From Haloferax gibbonsii ATCC 33959 (GTDB taxonomy: Archaea; Halobacteriota; Halobacteria; Halobacteriales; Haloferacaceae), in NCBI RefSeq assembly GCF_000336775.1, contig NZ_AOLJ01000003.1, positions 6,559-70,558 of the forward strand: 64,000 nucleotides of DNA, read 5' to 3'. Within the stretch, counting starts at the first letter, position 1. The number at the start of each line of letters is the position of its first letter. Positions 5,446-14,170 of this stretch are shown here, one piece after another. Position numbers and translations under genes: made by a program. The notes under the pieces were generated by a model. That model saw only the letters and a list, made by a program, of their open reading frames with translations. It was not told the DNA's origin and made no database searches.

Positions 5446-6708
5446 ATGTTCGAGGTCCAGTCCGAACTGGCGGTGTTCATCCTCCTGATGCTCGTCTGGA
5501 CCGTCTTCGTGCTGTATTCGGCCTCGGTGTTCACGTGGTTCGTCGAGGTGCTCGTCCTCGCGTGGCGACAGACCGTTCCCGCAGACGACGTCGCCTACGG
5601 CTACGACGACATCCAAGTGCGCATCATCACTATCGACGCGGCGAACATCGTCCAATCGACGGTCAACGCGGTTCCCGACGACCTCGCCGACGTTCGAGTC
5701 ATCGCGGAGAAACCGATTTCGGTCGACGGCGCGACGGTCCACGCCGTTCCCGAGGAGTTCACCTGCACGGCGTCTCACAAGGGCCGCGCGCTCGAATGGG
5801 CGCGCCGCGAGGTCCCCTGCGACAAGGAGTTCGTCCTCTACCTCGACGAGGACACGCTGATGGCGAACTTCGAGGGGTTGCCGGAGGGCGACATCATCCA
5901 GATAACCGAACTGCCGGTGTACACCGGGTCGTGGGTGACGTACCTCTCGGAGGTGTTCCGCATCGGTTACCAGCGCGAACAGCGGGCGTTTGGCCGCTTC
6001 AGCTTCCCGCTGTACGCGTGGGGCGGCGGCATCGCGATTCGGACGAGCCTCGAAAACCGCATCACGTGGGACTCGAAGACCATCACCGAGGACACGGACT
6101 TCGCGTGGCGCGCCGCCGCCGCCGCCGACCTCGATTTCAGCGTGCTGAACTGCAAGTTCCGCAATCAGGCCCCGCCGTCGGTGATGACGATGCTCAAGCA
6201 GCGTCGCCGGTGGTTCTCCGGGACGCGACAGGATTCGGACCTCCTACCGCTGCACTATCAGATGTTCCTGCAGTTCCGCCTCGTCGCGTGGGGCTTTTCG
6301 CCGCTCATCCCGGTGATAACGTTCATCACGTTCCTCGTCCCCGGCGCGCTCCCGGATCTGATGCTCTATCGGGTCGGCTCCCTTCTCGAGTTCGCCACGC
6401 TGTTCGTCGTGACGGGGGCCGGCGTGGCAAGTTACTGGTCGGAGTCGAAACTCACGCTCCTCGCGGTCCCGTGGACACCGATTCTCGTCGTTCTCAACAC
6501 GGCGGGCGCGCTCTGGGGGTTCGTCTCCCCGGTCGAGCACTTCGCCGTCACGACCAAGGTGCCGCTGGAGACGGTCGAAAAGCGCAACCCCGCGTTCGAG
6601 CCCGGCTCGCTCACGAAACACGACGGGCGGAACGACTTACCCGAGCGGCTGGACGTGAATCGACTCACGAGCGGGCTCCGGGAGTCTGTTCACGTCTTTG
6701 ACGATTGA
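5446..6708 (+). CDS. Membrane-anchored family 2 glycosyltransferase
   Basis: This protein of 420 residues starts with one membrane span (about 8-38), then a GT-A catalytic domain: DED at 134-136 (DXD-type metal binding), TED near 214-216 as the likely catalytic base region, and QRRRW at 252-256, the processive-GT2 Q(Q/R)xRW motif. Two or three more spans follow (about 280-395). This order matches cellulose synthase-like and hyaluronan synthase-like enzymes that build and export a polysaccharide or lipid-linked glycan; the sugar is not visible. The ATG at 5446 is preferred over upstream in-frame starts because the membrane anchor begins there. Confidence 0.88.
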   Translation: MFEVQSELAVFILLMLVWTVFVLYSASVFTWFVEVLVLAWRQTVPADDVAYGYDDIQVRIITIDAANIVQSTVNAVPDDLADVRVIAEKPISVDGATVHAVPEEFTCTASHKGRALEWARREVPCDKEFVLYLDEDTLMANFEGLPEGDIIQITELPVYTGSWVTYLSEVFRIGYQREQRAFGRFSFPLYAWGGGIAIRTSLENRITWDSKTITEDTDFAWRAAAAADLDFSVLNCKFRNQAPPSVMTMLKQRRRWFSGTRQDSDLLPLHYQMFLQFRLVAWGFSPLIPVITFITFLVPGALPDLMLYRVGSLLEFATLFVVTGAGVASYWSESKLTLLAVPWTPILVVLNTAGALWGFVSPVEHFAVTTKVPLETVEKRNPAFEPGSLTKHDGRNDLPERLDVNRLTSGLRESVHVFDD

Positions 6709-6830: not shown

Positions 6831-7421
6831 ATGAACGCGCACGCGAACACCGGTCCCGACCGCGCTCGCAAACACGAGCCCTTCCCGGCGTACGGACCCG
6901 TGGACGCGGCGCTCGGGTTCGTCGTCTTCTACCTGTTCGTCGAGCGCGCCACGCCGACTATCGTCGACACCGTGACGGGTGTCGTTCCCGGGCTCTCGGC
7001 GTCGGCGGTCGGCTTCGGACTCGCGGCGTTCCTGTGGTTCATCTTCGTCGTGACGACGCTCGACCAACTCCGCCGGCAACTCGCGGCGCTCGGGGTCGTC
7101 GCCGGGGACGCCGGCCGACTCGACCGCGTAGCGTCGGGACGGGCCGTCCCCAGCGTCCCGCGACTTCTCCTGTACGGCGTCGTCACCGTCGTCGGCGGCT
7201 CTATCGCCGTGCTCACGTTCGACCGCGCCGTCGACGCGGGCATCGCGTTCATCCGGCTCGTCACGGGCCTCGGTGCCGGCGTATTCCCGTTCGGCGCGGT
7301 CCCGCTCGTCGAGTTCCTCGTCATGGTCGTCTTCTTCGTCTCGTTCGGCGCGGCGACGCACTCGCTCGACAGGGTGGTCATCGGGAGCGTCAGGACCGCG
7401 TTCGCGACGGTCCGCCCGTAA
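6831..7421 (+). CDS. Four-span membrane protein of unknown function
   Basis: This 196-residue protein has a short hydrophilic N-terminus and four hydrophobic segments (roughly 20-45, 57-80, 105-130, 150-175). I do not recognise the family. It sits 122 bases after the glycosyltransferase and 93 bases before the Tat lipoprotein of the aminopropyltransferase-like cluster, and may belong to that cluster, where bacterial counterparts often include small membrane proteins such as DUF350 (a comparison, not a match I can show). The ATG at 6831 is chosen because the ten residues upstream are not protein-like. Confidence 0.72.
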   Translation: MNAHANTGPDRARKHEPFPAYGPVDAALGFVVFYLFVERATPTIVDTVTGVVPGLSASAVGFGLAAFLWFIFVVTTLDQLRRQLAALGVVAGDAGRLDRVASGRAVPSVPRLLLYGVVTVVGGSIAVLTFDRAVDAGIAFIRLVTGLGAGVFPFGAVPLVEFLVMVVFFVSFGAATHSLDRVVIGSVRTAFATVRP

Positions 7422-7514: not shown

Positions 7515-8240
7515 ATGAAGCGTCGTACGTTCCTCCAACTGACCGGCCTCGGGGCCGTCGGCGGACTCGCCGGCTGTCTCGGTTCGAACTCCCCTCCCCC
7601 GCGAAAGTCGAGCGTCGTCTCCGAATTCGAGGTCTCCGACGGCTCGCTCGTCGTCGACCTCGCCGACCAGACGTGGGTGATGTCCCGCTACGAAGCCGCC
7701 GACCAGTCGTCGCTGTCAGGGTTCGACCCGCAGTCGCTGGCCGCGCTCAGCCCCGTCGGGGTTGCGAGCGCGAAAGGCAAGGGCGGCGGCGGTGGCGGCC
7801 GCGGCGCGACCGGCCGCGGCACGGGCGGCTACGCCTCCGCCCCGCGGACGGTCCACGGCCACGCGTGGTACCACGGCGGCGACTACGCCGACGACTGGTA
7901 CGAGAACAACGCCGGCAAAGTGAGTCGATTCCCCGTCGGCGTCGCCGCGCTCGGCATCGCCTACCTCGGGTCGACCGCGGCGATGCGAGACGACGCGCCC
8001 GACGCCGGCCCGGTGCCGTGGGACCGCGAGATACAGGACCCGAACGACACCGTCCAGTACGACATCGACGACGGCAGCCAGTTTGGACAGGACGGCTGGT
8101 ACCGCGTCGGCGCGCACGTCGTCGGCGACGACGTGAACCACGACTTCCGCTGGGAGTGTTACGACCTCGAAGTCACCGACGGTATCGGTGATGCGGGGTA
8201 CTCCATCGAGGAAGAGTGGAAAGTCTCTCCGCGCATCTGA
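7515..8240 (+). CDS. Tat-exported lipoprotein of unknown function, aminopropyltransferase-linked
   Basis: This protein of 241 residues has MKRRTFLQLTGLGAVGG (Arg3-Arg4) followed by LAGC, giving a Tat signal and a lipid-anchored Cys21. The mature part has a Ser/Pro linker, a Gly-rich patch (about 88-105, KGKGGGGGGRGATGRG) and an aromatic-rich stretch (HGHAWYHGGDYADDWYENN). The Gly-rich block is unusual in a haloarchaeal lipoprotein and could be a flexible or amyloid-prone segment. It lies 58 bases upstream of the membrane aminopropyltransferase-like gene. In bacteria related clusters contain a DUF4247 lipoprotein; equivalence is only a positional guess. Confidence 0.8.
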   Translation: MKRRTFLQLTGLGAVGGLAGCLGSNSPPPRKSSVVSEFEVSDGSLVVDLADQTWVMSRYEAADQSSLSGFDPQSLAALSPVGVASAKGKGGGGGGRGATGRGTGGYASAPRTVHGHAWYHGGDYADDWYENNAGKVSRFPVGVAALGIAYLGSTAAMRDDAPDAGPVPWDREIQDPNDTVQYDIDDGSQFGQDGWYRVGAHVVGDDVNHDFRWECYDLEVTDGIGDAGYSIEEEWKVSPRI

Positions 8241-8298: not shown

Positions 8299-10134
8299 AT
8301 GTCCAACACGCGAACCGACACGGCGACGCTCCTGACGCTCACCTTCGTGGTGTCGTTCTGTAGCTTCGCCTACGAGTTCGTCTACTCGGAACTGCTGACG
8401 GTGATGTACGGCGGGACGGTCACCCAGTACGTCATCACGGTCGGGCTGTACTTCTTCAGCCTCGGCATCGGCGCGGCGCTCTCGGACGACCTCGACGGCG
8501 CGACCCTCGGCGGGAACTTCTTCCGCACCGAGGTGCTCCTGGCCGCGGCCGCGCCCGCGGGCTTCCTGCTCATCGTCGGTCTCAACAGCGTCCGCATCCC
8601 GCAGGCGGTGCCCGCGGAGGTCATCTGGACCGTCGCCCGCCTCCCCGTCGTCGTCGTCGGGTTCCTCTCGGGGTTCGAACTCCCGCTTTTGACCCGCATG
8701 TTCGACGAACTCGGCGACGACGGGTCGGCGACGCCCTCGTGGCTCCGAACCGCAGGCGCGCGAATCCACGATTTCGTCGTCGCCGCTGTCGGTACCCTCT
8801 GGACCGTCGAGCGGACCGAGGGCCGCAGAAGCGGGCTGTCTGTCATCCTCGCGATGGACTACGTCGGCGGCCTCGCCGGTGCCGTCGTCTACGCCCGCGT
8901 CCTCTACCCGGGTCTCGGCCTCATCCCGACGATATTCGTGCTGGCGCTCCTCAACGGGGTCGCCGCGCTCGTCTTCGTCGCCCACTTCGGCGAGTGGTCG
9001 TGGTGGCCCTTCAGCGACGCCGCCCCGTCCGCAAGCCCCGCCTCGTCCGCCAGCGCCGCACACGGCGGGAACGCGACCGACAGCGCCCGAGCCGACCGGT
9101 CGCTCTCGGCCGCCCGGGTCTCGAAGACGCTCCTCGTGGTCTGTCTCCTCTTGACGGCGACCTACGCGGGCGTCGTCGCCAAGCACGACGTCGCCGACGA
9201 GCGCCTGTCGCAACTCTACCTCGAACAGCAGATAGAAAACGAGTATCCGCCGGGCGCGATGCGCGCGACGGTCACCTCACAGGAGACGACCGCCTACCAG
9301 CACGTCATCAGATACAACCGCACGTGGACCGGCACCGGCCCGAACCCGCACTTCGACGGGCGGACGGAACAGTGCCTCCGCCTCGGCGCGGCCGTCCAAC
9401 TCTGCGAGAGTTGGGCCGACAGCTACCATCGGGGGCTAGTCGACGTGCCGATGTCGCTGGTCGAACCCGGCCCGGAGACCAAGGTACTCGTCGTCGGCGG
9501 CGGCGACTGGATTGCTATCGACCACCTGCGGGAGTACGGCGTCACCGTCGACCACGTCGACCTCGACGGCGAGTTCATGCGCGACGCGAAGACGGACCCC
9601 TTCTTCCGCCGCTGGCACGACGACGCCCACGAGTACGACCGGCTGAACACGACGGTCGCCGACGGCTACCGGTACCTCCAAGAGACGAACGAGACGTACG
9701 ACCTCGTGTTGCTCGACGTGCCCGGCGCGACCGACGACGACCTGCTCACGCTCTACTCGACCGAGTTCTACCGCTCCGTCCGGACCCACCTCTCCGAGGA
9801 CGGCGTCGCGGTGACGTGGGGCTACTCGCCCGACGCCTACCCCGAACACCACAAGGCGTTCGTCAACACCGTCGGGGCCGCGGGTTTCACCCAAGAACTT
9901 TCCTACTGGGTGCGCGAGGACCTCGACGACGACGGCGAGACCGAGCGCGTCGAGCAGTTCTACGTGCTCGCGCCCGGCGACCGGCCCCGGCTCACCGGCG
10001 ACGGCGCGACCCGGTACGTCCGCGCCCGCGAGGAGCACTACGGCTCCCCCGAGTGGCACGCGGTCCCGCACTACCGCGGCGTCCGCGAGAACTCCATCTT
10101 CCACCCGAACTACGACATCCTCGTCGACACCTGA
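8299..10134 (+). CDS. Membrane-bound spermidine synthase-like aminopropyltransferase
   Basis: This protein of 611 residues has seven or eight membrane spans in residues 10-300 followed by a Rossmann methyltransferase-like domain of the polyamine synthase type. VVGGGDW (glycine motif near 400-403) binds the nucleotide cofactor. VDLDGEF supplies the acidic ribose ligand. DLVLLDVPGATDDD and LYSTEFYR match the conserved SpeE region. Soluble SpeE enzymes transfer aminopropyl groups from decarboxylated SAM; fused membrane versions are of unsettled function and may modify lipids or membrane polyamines. The gene is followed six bases later by the DUF2617-like gene, so they are cotranscribed. Confidence 0.9.
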   Translation: MSNTRTDTATLLTLTFVVSFCSFAYEFVYSELLTVMYGGTVTQYVITVGLYFFSLGIGAALSDDLDGATLGGNFFRTEVLLAAAAPAGFLLIVGLNSVRIPQAVPAEVIWTVARLPVVVVGFLSGFELPLLTRMFDELGDDGSATPSWLRTAGARIHDFVVAAVGTLWTVERTEGRRSGLSVILAMDYVGGLAGAVVYARVLYPGLGLIPTIFVLALLNGVAALVFVAHFGEWSWWPFSDAAPSASPASSASAAHGGNATDSARADRSLSAARVSKTLLVVCLLLTATYAGVVAKHDVADERLSQLYLEQQIENEYPPGAMRATVTSQETTAYQHVIRYNRTWTGTGPNPHFDGRTEQCLRLGAAVQLCESWADSYHRGLVDVPMSLVEPGPETKVLVVGGGDWIAIDHLREYGVTVDHVDLDGEFMRDAKTDPFFRRWHDDAHEYDRLNTTVADGYRYLQETNETYDLVLLDVPGATDDDLLTLYSTEFYRSVRTHLSEDGVAVTWGYSPDAYPEHHKAFVNTVGAAGFTQELSYWVREDLDDDGETERVEQFYVLAPGDRPRLTGDGATRYVRAREEHYGSPEWHAVPHYRGVRENSIFHPNYDILVDT

Positions 10135-10140
10135 TTACCA

Positions 10141-10671
10141 ATGCCCTCCCAACCACCTTCCACCACCGAACCGCCCGCCGCCTCCGACCCGTCTCAGCCG
10201 GTCGAGACACCGACCGAGCTGTACTTCGGCTACAGCGCCGACGCGCCGGACCTGACGACCGTGGACGTGAAGACGGTCTCCCCGGCGACGCTCGCGGGCG
10301 AACCGGCGGTCCTCACCGTCATCGGCGAGTCCCACTACGTCGGCCTGCCGGCGCTCGACTTCCACGAGCTGTGTTCGTGCAAGCCGCTGCCGCACGAACG
10401 AACCCACGAGACGCCGCTTTCCGTCGGCGCGGAACGCGAGTTCAGCTTCGAGAGCGACCGACTCGACGCCCGGACGGTCGTGGAGGGGCGCTCGCTCGAC
10501 GCCTTCCCCGGCCCGGACGACGCGACCGTCGCCTATCGGTTCGGCCCGGAGGCGTGGACCACCATCCGCGTCGGCGACGGCGGCTACGAGACGTACCACA
10601 CCTACCCGGAGCACGACCTCGCGCTGTACACCGAGACGACGATGACGCCCGAACGAGAGGCTCAGCGATGA
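10141..10671 (+). CDS. DUF2617-like protein
   Basis: This soluble acidic protein of 176 residues starts with a Pro/Ser-rich stretch and then a globular domain with GESHYVGLPALDFHELCSC (about 62-80), resembling the GxSHxV...ExxxC pattern I associate with DUF2617, a family repeatedly found beside membrane spermidine synthases. The CSC pair may bind metal. It lies 6 bases after the aminopropyltransferase-like gene and 22 bases before the next gene, clearly within one operon. The family name is from pattern recall; the function is unknown. Confidence 0.75.
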   Translation: MPSQPPSTTEPPAASDPSQPVETPTELYFGYSADAPDLTTVDVKTVSPATLAGEPAVLTVIGESHYVGLPALDFHELCSCKPLPHERTHETPLSVGAEREFSFESDRLDARTVVEGRSLDAFPGPDDATVAYRFGPEAWTTIRVGDGGYETYHTYPEHDLALYTETTMTPEREAQR

Positions 10672-10693
10672 CTCCCGAACGAACTACCCAACG

Positions 10694-11665
10694 ATGACTC
10701 GAAACGCCACCACCTACGACGGCGACGTGACGCTCAACGGCTCCGAACGACCCCCGGTCGAACTGCGCGACCCCGCGGACGTGTTCGTCGGCGGCGCGAG
10801 CGTCGCCGGCGACCTCACCGTGCAGAACGCCGAGTACGTCTTCACCCACGCGCCGGTGACCGACGACGCGGCCGTCGGCGACGCGACGGCCGGCGACGCG
10901 GCCGTCGAGACCGAAATCCGCGGCAGCCTCGAAGACGGCTACGTCCAGTCGGTCGACGGCGACGTGCTCCTCGGCGACGCCGAAGACGTGTTCATCGCGG
11001 CCGACGCCGCCGACGGCGCGGTCTCGGCACCCGGGGCGGAGAACGTCTACGCGGGCGAGGGGACGCCCGGCGCCGCCCCCGACGACTACGACGTGTCCAC
11101 CTTCGGCTGGAAGCAGTCGGGGAGCGCGACCGACCCCGATACCGGCGTCTACGCCGTCGGCATGGCCCACGACGTCGACCTCACGAACGTCAACTCGGAC
11201 GTGGAACTCTACCTCGTCGGCCACGGCCACGAGGTGCGGGTCGAGGGTCGAGGTGCGGCAGTCTCCGTCCACTTCGTCGGCTACGACAACACCGTCAGCG
11301 TCGGGCCGTACCTCGCGTCGAGCGTCGAGACCGACACCGGATTCGACAACGCGGTCGACGCCGACCCCTACCCCGCCGAGGACCTCGTCGAGATGTCCCG
11401 AAGCGAGGCCTACTCGAACGCCGGGTTCGGCCGCCGTAAGGTGACGTTCCAAGAGCCGGCCGACGGCGACGAGTGGTGTCCGAACTGCGGCAAGCCCGCC
11501 GAGGCCATCATCGAGCGCCATCAGATGGAGGCGTTTTTCCTCTTCGGCTGGCCGCTTTGGACCTTCGAGCAGAGCACCAACCCCGCCCGCGAGTGCGAAC
11601 ACTGCTCGCCCAACGCGATTCACGCCGAACTCTCGGCGTCCGAGCGCCGCGAGATATTCGACTGA
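10694..11665 (+). CDS. Beta-solenoid-like protein with C-terminal zinc ribbon
   Basis: This protein of 323 residues has no signal or membrane span. Residues 1-230 are rich in short beta-strand-like repeats (DVFVGG, DVLLGDAEDVFIA, ENVYAGE, DVELYLVGHGHEVRVEG), consistent with a right-handed beta-solenoid. The C-terminus carries CPNC (262-265) and CEHC (301-304) separated by a hydrophobic WPLWTF segment, a treble-clef or zinc-ribbon arrangement also seen in zinc-ribbon membrane-interacting proteins. I do not recognise the full-length family. It is 22 bases downstream of the DUF2617-like gene and precedes the ion channel gene. Confidence 0.78.
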   Translation: MTRNATTYDGDVTLNGSERPPVELRDPADVFVGGASVAGDLTVQNAEYVFTHAPVTDDAAVGDATAGDAAVETEIRGSLEDGYVQSVDGDVLLGDAEDVFIAADAADGAVSAPGAENVYAGEGTPGAAPDDYDVSTFGWKQSGSATDPDTGVYAVGMAHDVDLTNVNSDVELYLVGHGHEVRVEGRGAAVSVHFVGYDNTVSVGPYLASSVETDTGFDNAVDADPYPAEDLVEMSRSEAYSNAGFGRRKVTFQEPADGDEWCPNCGKPAEAIIERHQMEAFFLFGWPLWTFEQSTNPARECEHCSPNAIHAELSASERREIFD

Positions 11666-11685
11666 CCTCGTCGGCGGTCCGAAGA

Positions 11686-11693
11686 TATATATC
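11686..11693 (+). promoter_or_regulatory. TATA box upstream of pentapeptide-channel gene
   Basis: TATATATC lies in an AT-rich island between the zinc-ribbon gene and the channel gene. A start of transcription about 25-30 bases later would leave a leader of about 120 bases before the ATG at 11837, suggesting the channel gene has its own promoter in addition to operon read-through. Confidence 0.45.
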
Positions 11694-11836
11694 AAAACAC
11701 CAGACAATGTTGCACATACGACTGTCCCCGCGTTCGAACGTCGCACCCGTGTTCGAACGCGCTCGCCGGGTCTGCACCCTCAGCCGCACCCGCCACGCCC
11801 GCTGTCCCCGGCACATCCGTCCGCCCCTCCCCAGCC

Positions 11837-14170
11837 ATGTCGAGAAATGAGTCCACGCCGGCCTTGATGTCCTCCTCGTCGTGCCGGTACACGTTCGACC
11901 CGTCGGTCCAGACCGACGCCCACCTCCAGACGACGTGGGAGTGTCCGCACGAAGCCCACCCCGAAAGCGAGTTCTGCGTGTTCCACATGAGCCGCGACGA
12001 GCGCGCCTCGCTCGACGTGACCGGCGACGACATCGTCGGCGAACTCCGGGCGAACCTCCAGTCGCCCGACACCCGCGTCAACGAGTACGTCGGCGCGGAC
12101 CTCCCGCACCTCTCGCTCACCTATCAGGACATCAACGGCGCGACGAACCACGTCCTCAACTTCCAGCACGCCGACATCGAGGGCTTGGACCTCACCCACG
12201 GCCGCCTCGACCAGGGGTTGATTCTCCGCGAGGCGACGGTCGGCCGCCTCAAACTCGACGAGGCGGTGGTCACCGGCGACGTGGACGCACGGGAGGTCAC
12301 CGTGACCGACGCGGTGACGACCAACGAGGCGACGTTCGAACAGGACGTCCGCTTTTCGGAGGCGACCTTCCGCGGCGAGGTCCGCTGCGACGAGACGGTG
12401 TTCCAGGGGGACACCAGTTTCGCAGACGCGACGTTCCACGGCACGGCGCGCTTCCGCAACGTCGAGACCAGCGGGAGCAGCCACGTCCTCGACGACAACA
12501 TCACCTTCGCGAACGCGACGTTCCGCGACGACGCGAGTTTCAGACAGGCGATTTTCAATTACGTGACGTTCGAGGGCGCGCGGTTCACCGCGGGGTCGGA
12601 CTTCGAACACGTCGAGTTCGAGGGCGACGCCCGGTTCGACGGCGTCCGCTTCGACGAGATGGCCGACTTCGACGAGGCGCGGTTCGACGACGACGCGAGC
12701 TTCGCCGACGCCCGGTTCATGCAGTTGGCCGAGTTCCGCGGCGTCGAGTTCAACGGCGGGAGCCGGACGACCCACGACGACGTGACGTTCGAGGGCGCGA
12801 CGTTCGAGGGCGAAGCGGACTACAAGCTCGCTCGATTCCGCTATTCGGACTTCAAGGACGCCGTGTTCAAGGGCGCGGTCAACTTCGACCGCGCGACGTT
12901 CACCGCCCGCACCGACTGCTATCGCCTCCGCGTCGATGGCGCGTTCGACCTCTCTTTGGCGTCGTTCGACGGGCAGGCGAACTTCGACGAGAGCGAGTTC
13001 CGCGACGCCGTCGTCGCCGAGGAGGCGACGTTCGGGTGCGACGCCTCGTTCGAGGGGGTCGAGTTCGAAGCTAACGCTCGGTTCGGCGAGGCGCGGTTCG
13101 AAGAGGACGTGAGCTTCAAGACCGCGGCGTTCCACGGTCTCGCCACCTTCCGCGGGGCGTTCTTCGAGGGCGAACTGCAGCACCTCGAAGCCAACGCCTC
13201 GTTCAACGAGGCGACCTTCGAAGCCGGCGCGGAGTTCGAGGCCGCGAACTTCACGAGCGCGTCGTTCTGGGAGACGACGTTCCACGACCGGGCGGACTTC
13301 CGGCAGTCTGACTTCGAGACGGCGCGCTTCCGCGTGCTCGTCGGCGACCGCGACACCTACCTCGACTTCACCGACGCGACGCTCTCCGGCGGCACGATTT
13401 CGCAGGGCTCCGGCGAGCCGACGCCGTACGACCTCACCCGCGCGACCATCGGCGACCTGACGCTGGAGGGCGACGGCAACGAACACCAGCTTCTTGACCA
13501 CTTCCGCTTCTGTCTCACCGAGTTCGACCGCTTCGACTTCAGCGACCACCACGGCTACCTCGAACGCAACGACTGGACCATCCACGACTTCGTGGGTAAC
13601 GGCGCGACCGGCCAGTTCGCCGTGGAACTGACGCCCGATATAATCGAAGAAACGTACCGGAAGGCGCAGGACAGCGCCAACGCCGTCGGTGACACCCCCG
13701 CGAGCCGCGAGTTCGAGTTCAAGCGCTACTACTACAACCGCCAGAAGAACTTCGACATCATCCTCAACGAGTACTCGCTGAACACGTGGGCCCGCGGCAA
13801 GAAGGTCGCAAGCGTGGGACTGAACACGCTCATGCAAGTCACCTGCGGCTACGGTAACCGCCTCCCGCGAATCGCGGCGTTCACGTTCCTCCTCCCGGCG
13901 CTGTTCGGGCTGTGTTACGCCCTCGGCGGGCCGTTTCTGACGCAGGCGGGGAGCGTCTTCGACCCCGCCGCGGTCGACAAGACGACGATGGAGGTCCTCT
14001 TCGACAACGTCTACTACAGCTACATCAGCTTCAGCACGGTCGGCTACGGCGATATCAACCCGCTCGGGCCGGCGGCGCGCGTGCTCGCGGCGAGCCAGGG
14101 GATGTTGAACGGGCTGTTTTTCACCCTGCTCACGTTCACGCTGTTCAAGCGCGTGCTCGGCGGGAGCTAA
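11837..14170 (+). CDS. Pentapeptide-repeat protein fused to a two-span K+ channel pore
   Basis: This 777-residue protein has three parts. Residues 1-60 carry a Cys/His-rich head (CRYTF, CPHEAHPESEFCVFH) that could bind zinc. Residues about 80-500 are a long run of five-residue repeats centred on Phe (ATFHGTARF, ARFDGVRFDEMADF), the pentapeptide fold that makes a four-sided solenoid. Residues about 670-777 hold two membrane helices around TVGYGD (734-739), the potassium selectivity filter. The likely role is a K+-selective or related channel with a large cytoplasmic sensing domain. It ends the aminopropyltransferase cluster, where polyamines, known blockers of K+ channels, offer an appealing functional link (inference). 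Confidence 0.9.
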   Translation: MSRNESTPALMSSSSCRYTFDPSVQTDAHLQTTWECPHEAHPESEFCVFHMSRDERASLDVTGDDIVGELRANLQSPDTRVNEYVGADLPHLSLTYQDINGATNHVLNFQHADIEGLDLTHGRLDQGLILREATVGRLKLDEAVVTGDVDAREVTVTDAVTTNEATFEQDVRFSEATFRGEVRCDETVFQGDTSFADATFHGTARFRNVETSGSSHVLDDNITFANATFRDDASFRQAIFNYVTFEGARFTAGSDFEHVEFEGDARFDGVRFDEMADFDEARFDDDASFADARFMQLAEFRGVEFNGGSRTTHDDVTFEGATFEGEADYKLARFRYSDFKDAVFKGAVNFDRATFTARTDCYRLRVDGAFDLSLASFDGQANFDESEFRDAVVAEEATFGCDASFEGVEFEANARFGEARFEEDVSFKTAAFHGLATFRGAFFEGELQHLEANASFNEATFEAGAEFEAANFTSASFWETTFHDRADFRQSDFETARFRVLVGDRDTYLDFTDATLSGGTISQGSGEPTPYDLTRATIGDLTLEGDGNEHQLLDHFRFCLTEFDRFDFSDHHGYLERNDWTIHDFVGNGATGQFAVELTPDIIEETYRKAQDSANAVGDTPASREFEFKRYYYNRQKNFDIILNEYSLNTWARGKKVASVGLNTLMQVTCGYGNRLPRIAAFTFLLPALFGLCYALGGPFLTQAGSVFDPAAVDKTTMEVLFDNVYYSYISFSTVGYGDINPLGPAARVLAASQGMLNGLFFTLLTFTLFKRVLGGS

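Follow-up and report, generated by a model that had tools for sequence, protein, structure and literature searches.

A conserved haloarchaeal gene cluster with a membrane SpeE-like enzyme and DUF2617, a probable remote relative of AdoMet decarboxylase

Where does a membrane enzyme resembling spermidine synthase (SpeE) obtain its donor in archaea that lack the canonical enzyme for making it? The question is raised by a stretch of 64,000 nucleotides from Haloferax gibbonsii ATCC 33959 (contig NZ_AOLJ01000003.1, positions 6,559 to 70,558 of the forward strand), which we call the window. Here a SpeE-like gene lies in a five-gene cluster, directly upstream of a gene encoding a DUF2617 protein. An aminopropyltransferase requires decarboxylated S-adenosylmethionine (dcAdoMet), and the sequence-only reading that first described the cluster overlooked the absence of SpeD, the canonical S-adenosylmethionine (AdoMet) decarboxylase (AdoMetDC). 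We propose DUF2617 as a candidate source of dcAdoMet in halophiles. The two genes, with the codons discussed below, are:

8299-10134, + strand: SpeE-like, aminopropyltransferase-like membrane enzyme, with about seven N-terminal transmembrane segments and a C-terminal spermidine-synthase domain (residues ~359-540)
9496-9510, + strand: GGGDW codons of the SpeE-like gene; donor-binding loop, Asp403 kept, next Gly replaced by an aromatic residue
9715-9729, + strand: DVPGA codons of the SpeE-like gene; Asp473, the catalytic residue, is kept, and Gly stands in place of the second Asp of the canonical DxxDP acceptor loop
10141-10671, + strand: DUF2617 protein, a proposed divergent AdoMetDC of the fused two-half type
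10330-10335, + strand: Ser64-His65 codons (IGESH) of DUF2617; proposed pyruvoyl/cleavage-site Ser, invariant in 53/53 sequences
10378-10380, + strand: Cys80 codon (ELCSC) of DUF2617; proposed catalytic Cys, invariant in 53/53
10594-10611, + strand: YHTYPE codons (residues 152-157) of DUF2617, with His153 and Glu157; compare HTWPE in SpeD and IHITPE in the human enzyme

The missing donor and the DUF2617 protein

We found canonical SpeD (PF02675) in 2 of 145 haloarchaeal genomes and in none of the 17 that carry the cluster. These counts agree with Prunetti et al. (2016; PMC5178350), who report no AdoMetDC in any sequenced halophile, do not settle where dcAdoMet comes from, and offer no explanation for the role of the two membrane SpeE homologues of H. 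volcanii. An AdoMetDC-like DUF2617 would explain how a SpeE partner is supplied with donor without canonical SpeD.

The window protein matches DUF2617 (PF10936) with E=1e-5 (26.1 bits against a gathering threshold of 22.3), and all 17 cluster members match at E<=1. Two conserved histidines plus acidic residues are described for this domain (PMC11237479), and His65, His153, and Glu76 are invariant in 53/53 sequences. When we searched the PDB with a profile of the 17 proteins, the only chain at E<=1 was the SpeD structure 2iii (E 0.044), the alignment covering the active-site part of SpeD. The possibility that the SpeE-like enzyme works without any donor was dropped once this profile matched SpeD. 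Using hhalign, DUF2617 scored 34.1 against 33 SpeD sequences (P 6.6e-5), compared to 20.3 for the best of 200 column-shuffled SpeD alignments and 12.8 for a reversed alignment; with three bacterial DUF2617 sequences added, the score was 33.2, and shuffled alignments reached at most 22.4. For the C-terminal half taken by itself, the score was 33.3, and none of 150 shuffles exceeded 16.2. A SpeD HMM gave 14.6 bits on DUF2617, the best of 300 shuffled or reversed controls giving 5.7. In the AlphaFold2 (AF2) model, which is confident (pLDDT 87.6, pTM 0.80), the two halves contain the same hairpin-turn-strand unit. Foldseek ranked Trypanosoma brucei AdoMetDC/prozyme first among 350,542 PDB chains (prob 0.82, E 0.03), with Thermotoga SpeD at 0.69 and 0.60 and the others among the matches listed at 0.33 or below.

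Human AdoMetDC has its pyruvoyl-forming Ser68 and its Cys82 in the N-terminal half, and Phe223, Ser229, His243, and Glu247 in the C-terminal half. (We checked the human sequence and its numbering with two PDB entries, 1msv and 1jl0, in which Ala replaces residues 68 and 243, respectively.) Eleven DUF2617 residues are invariant across 50 archaeal and three bacterial members: Gly62, Ser64, His65, Glu76, Cys80, Phe134, Ala138, Thr140, His153, Tyr155, and Pro156. In order, Ser64, Cys80, Phe134, Thr140, His153, and Glu157 parallel the six human residues. The spacings from Phe to Ser/Thr (six residues) and from His to Glu (four) are identical to human, the spacing from Ser/Thr to His differs by one, and the register of the C-terminal half was chosen by the alignment program itself. 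DUF2617 resembles SpeD and the fused eukaryotic AdoMetDC in the Ser-His motif, the Cys, and the pattern F-6-S/T-13/14-H-4-E, in its top Foldseek hit, and in its position beside a membrane SpeE. We conclude that DUF2617 is probably a homologue of AdoMetDC, and on balance we predict that it makes dcAdoMet. That this family is an AdoMetDC relative filling the published gap is probable, and it is what our analysis adds to earlier work.

Several observations weigh against this assignment. None of the 17 DUF2617 proteins matched PF02675 at E<=1; DUF2617 is therefore classed as a remote relative and not as SpeD. It differs from AdoMetDC in lying below Pfam detection, in its length of ~150 residues, and in its nearly all-beta model, and the Foldseek TM-scores against AdoMetDC are low (0.2-0.33), so that the fold evidence is only suggestive. 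In the Foldseek viral library, SpeD ranked 11 (prob 0.47) in an unspecific listing. A wider profile of 50 DUF2617 proteins had the same top match, 2iii, at a modest E of 0.42. The N-terminal half, with Ser64 and Cys80, scored 18.4 against 18.8 for shuffled alignments and is not above chance alone; the residue preceding Ser64 is not always Glu, a difference from AdoMetDC; and two of the bacterial proteins have Asn or Gln in place of the near-invariant Glu157. Because of the N-terminal score and the replaced Glu157, pyruvoyl formation at Ser64 is put forward as a prediction. Against the single human sequence, DUF2617 scored 19.5 and shuffled controls 20.2; the known SpeD-human pair scores lower still (18.2), making this comparison uninformative. 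Canonical SpeD also occurs in one of 48 cluster-bearing archaea reached through a second collection, Halosimplex salinum; PMC11237479 can be read as placing AdoMetDC in operons related to those with DUF2617; and deletion of the H. volcanii SpeE gene HVO_B0357 is reported to have no phenotype (PMC5178350).

The low TM-scores and modest E-values would fit a likeness that arose by chance or by convergence around the HTYPE motif, with the cluster forming an envelope-stress module of some other chemistry. This is improbable, as the C-terminal score lies far above that of its shuffled controls and as sequence, structure, and genome context concur on AdoMetDC, which would be the activity missing beside an aminopropyltransferase.

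DUF2617 was not found in viral contigs. A tblastn search of plasmids for bacterial DUF2617 gave, among the matches listed, only haloarchaea, the rest being chance matches to IstB-type ATPases. For the genes Rv2598-Rv2600, we found no paper on function as judged by titles and abstracts.

A conserved module and its bacterial counterparts

The remaining cluster genes are:

7515-8240, + strand: Tat lipoprotein; has an RR motif, a LAGC lipobox, and a conserved Arg/Gly-rich patch
10694-11665, + strand: beta-rich (solenoid-like) protein ending in a zinc ribbon; neither sequence nor fold gave a solved relative
11837-14170, + strand: pentapeptide-repeat protein fused to a two-transmembrane K+ channel pore (STVGYGD filter)

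The sequence-only reading had described five genes running in one direction between 8299 and 14170, three of them with gaps of 6-22 nucleotides. All five are on the + strand, with the lipoprotein gene lying outside that range. From lipoprotein to channel, the gaps are 58, 6, 22, and 171 nucleotides; the short spacing thus holds for the SpeE-like, DUF2617, and beta-rich genes only.

The five genes form a real, conserved, and partly known module. All occur together in 17 of the 145 Halobacteria genomes, an identical set with each protein as query, which rules out a chance grouping and bears out the conserved neighborhood and co-occurrence on which the earlier description depended. They are mutually close in nearly all 17 genomes, and the five families are the only ones that recur widely around these loci; DUF350 and PspA are not among them. 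A scan of a GTDB genome set, which partly overlaps with the 17, gave 56 archaeal loci (55 haloarchaeal and one from Actinarchaeum) and five bacterial ones. The order lipoprotein-SpeE-DUF2617 was fixed in 55 of the 55 loci long enough to tell. The lipoprotein is present in 17/17 genomes and 56/56 loci, the zinc-ribbon protein in 17/17 and, within 6.5 kb, 52/56, and the channel in 17/17 and, within 6.5 kb, 43/56; the latter two may be inverted in orientation, and their counts are affected by loci that end at contig edges. The channel is thus the least tightly linked of the five.

The SpeE-like gene is on 12 haloarchaeal plasmid records and DUF2617 on those same 12, and the cluster is often on megaplasmids. 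Pairwise distances among the five proteins correlate at 0.84-0.96. This patchy distribution fits a module gained or lost as a unit. An upstream glycosyltransferase gene (5446-6708) and membrane gene (6831-7421) were rejected as members because they are kept only in close Haloferax relatives. In one genome (G040, contig C18; loci L081 and L082), the cluster is divided between the two ends of a contig of 558,626 bases, pointing to a circular replicon that is probably a megaplasmid. In another (L097, G123), the zinc-ribbon gene is retained on the opposite strand, ~6.5 kb away from the other cluster genes.

The cluster is an archaeal branch of known bacterial clusters. The correspondence drawn earlier, to bacterial clusters with a membrane spermidine synthase, DUF350, DUF4178, DUF4247, and channels, is supported by PMC11237479 and by the Bacillota loci described below. 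In common with the bacterial arrangement DUF4178-PspA-(DUF2617)-DUF4247-DUF350-SpeE(7TM)-K+ channel, where 7TM denotes seven transmembrane segments (reported together with PSP systems in PMC11237479), the haloarchaeal one has the membrane SpeE, DUF2617, and a K+ channel, and both have a secreted protein or lipoprotein with a Gly-rich patch and a beta-rich cytosolic protein. In contrast, the haloarchaeal cluster lacks DUF350, PspA, DUF4178, and DUF4247 by Pfam, its channel is fused to pentapeptide repeats instead of RCK, it has the beta/zinc-ribbon protein, and its SpeE has lost the acceptor Asp.

Canonical SpeD lies within 7 kb at six of eight bacterial membrane-SpeE loci, and in Alteromonas it is directly downstream of the membrane SpeE, where haloarchaea have DUF2617. 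DUF2617 itself occurs in three of 398 genomes of Bacillota, the phylum of Thalassobacillus. All three have the order DUF4178-PspA-DUF2617-DUF4247-membrane SpeE, followed in two by a K+ channel and DUF350. None of the three contains SpeD, compared to 319 of the 398 background genomes (~0.008 by chance if the two are independent). Among 14 control genomes, we found DUF2617 in Corynebacterium glutamicum and H. volcanii and SpeD in eight others, neither of these two among them.

The SpeE-like enzyme and its acceptor

As the earlier description of a membrane aminopropyltransferase implied, the SpeE-like protein matches Spermine_synth (PF01564; E=4.6e-14, 52.8 bits against a cut-off of 22.9) and has seven transmembrane segments in a hydropathy scan. 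It is 99% identical to its counterpart in Haloferax prahovense. It falls far below the curated cut-offs for polyamine aminopropyltransferase (best 189.8 bits against 472) and speE (53 against 249.6). All 17 aligned proteins keep the GGGD Asp as well as the catalytic Asp, and the Gly following GGGD is aromatic (GGGD[W/Y]) in nearly all archaeal loci. In spermidine synthases, these invariant Asp residues hold the amine of the decarboxylated donor. The DxxDP acceptor loop, DLPDP in bacterial membrane SpeE, is not kept and reads D[VLI]PG[AVI] in 54 of 56 archaeal loci, the other two not having been read. We read this pattern as a donor site that is kept and an acceptor site that has changed. By its GGGD(W/Y) motif (PMC6267482), the window protein is orthologous to HVO_B0357 of H. 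volcanii, which also has DUF2617; neighboring genes and DUF2617 are not discussed in the available text of PMC5178350 or PMC6267482.

A second haloarchaeal SpeE-like family (L026-L037), with open frames mostly of 523-709 amino acids and apparently of the HVO_0255 type, matches the window protein only over ~390-505.

The sequence-only reading had also proposed a membrane polyamine or lipid-modification system. The donor-side residues are conserved, but the acceptor side is unlike that of a putrescine enzyme, and according to PMC5178350, H. volcanii has no spermidine and its SpeE homologues have not conserved the putrescine-binding residues. The same paper names agmatine as a main polyamine of H. 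volcanii, and the SpeE domain has its best PDB match in Thermus polyamine aminopropyltransferase 1uir, a triamine/agmatine enzyme according to PMC6267482. One could imagine ordinary polyamine synthesis, yielding triamine or aminopropylagmatine from agmatine, with the polyamines acting on the channel; a pentapeptide protein encoded, in another haloarchaeon, next to SpeD and a gene of deacetylase fold would fit. We regard this as improbable, since the acceptor Asp is lost across the family and a membrane fusion linked to a lipoprotein is ill-suited to a soluble metabolite pathway. On balance, an acceptor other than a free polyamine is the more likely.

The lipid aminoacyltransferase/flippase MprF combines an N-terminal domain of multiple transmembrane segments with a transferase that lies in the cytosol and attaches a cationic group, and we know of no sequence relation between it and the SpeE-like enzyme. 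By analogy only, given the transmembrane domain and the linked lipoprotein, an acceptor in the membrane, modified in an MprF-like manner, is a natural guess; the donor would be dcAdoMet, and a lipid acceptor is speculative.

The changed loop, the aromatic residue after GGGD, and the absence of canonical SpeD could also mean that the SpeE-like enzyme has AdoMet itself as its donor and acts as an aminocarboxypropyl- or methyltransferase, with DUF2617 a non-catalytic or different partner derived from an AdoMetDC-like fold. Plant putrescine methyltransferases are derived from spermidine synthase. However, the residues that hold the donor amine in spermidine synthases are invariant, SpeE and DUF2617 are strictly paired, the corresponding bacterial loci have SpeD, and the invariant Ser, Cys, and His of DUF2617 are unlike a dead enzyme. 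We therefore consider direct use of AdoMet unlikely.

The reading that we prefer, with some reserve, is a mobile membrane module in which DUF2617 makes the donor for a SpeE-like transferase with an acceptor other than putrescine. DUF2617 would cleave itself before Ser64 to form a pyruvoyl group and decarboxylate AdoMet to dcAdoMet, which the SpeE-like enzyme would use to aminopropylate its acceptor at or in the membrane. On the outer side the lipoprotein, and on the inner side the zinc-ribbon protein, might serve to sense or handle this product or the condition of the envelope, and the K+ channel could act as effector in that envelope or osmotic response. More tentatively, DUF2617 may represent a third, highly reduced AdoMetDC class, found in haloarchaea and in Corynebacterium-like actinobacteria without SpeD, that feeds a lipid- or envelope-modifying membrane aminopropyltransferase and not free polyamines. 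If true, this would assign a function to DUF2617, a Pfam domain that Corynebacterium and Mycobacterium also have. Envelope clusters of a widespread class would likewise gain a chemical rationale, in which one protein makes the donor and a membrane transferase uses it. A named neighbor gene and a predicted active site make the question of halophile dcAdoMet testable in H. volcanii.

The lipoprotein, the zinc-ribbon protein, and the channel

The earlier domain calls for the cluster genes were borne out by Pfam, the hydropathy scan, and a zinc-ribbon profile. The Gly-rich patch noted in the Tat lipoprotein is conserved across members as GRGATGRGxGGY. We found no Pfam match for this protein in 17 members, and no relative among solved structures. 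Membership in DUF4247 was rejected, as no member had a Pfam hit; by analogy, from shared position and the Gly-rich patch only, it may replace the bacterial DUF4247 lipoprotein.

For the protein labeled beta-solenoid/zinc-ribbon, the ribbon holds up: Cys262, Cys265, Cys301, and Cys304 are invariant, and eight of 17 members match Zn_ribbon_15 (best E 3.2e-5). The AF2 model (pLDDT 89.5) is nearly all-beta, making the solenoid label plausible; we found no PDB fold match and no solved relative by sequence. DUF4178 was tried and gave no hit. In three loci (L089, L090, and L092; genomes G041, G059, and G113), the protein is short (198 amino acids) and lacks the N-terminal half, to which a separate upstream open reading frame has a weak match.

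The channel matches Pentapeptide_3 (E=1.1e-53) and Ion_trans_2 (E=5.8e-10), and its TxGYG selectivity filter is kept in 43/43 channels. The family also occurs without the cluster and was found in 50 of 145 Halobacteria genomes; in one cluster genome, apparently of H. larsenii, it lies on another contig. A gating link between the channel and the rest of the cluster is possible, and gating by polyamines improbable.

In a haloarchaeon without the cluster (L104:5319-10236; G090, contig C34), canonical SpeD adjoins a pentapeptide-repeat membrane protein and is also beside a gene of histone-deacetylase fold (acetylpolyamine amidohydrolase-like), a second link of pentapeptide proteins with polyamine genes. 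On a plasmid of Halobaculum rubrum (L118:7984-9762), SpeD, a CxxCxxCC protein, and a soluble SpeE are encoded in a row; this organism thus has, on a plasmid, the complete canonical route to dcAdoMet, which few haloarchaea possess.

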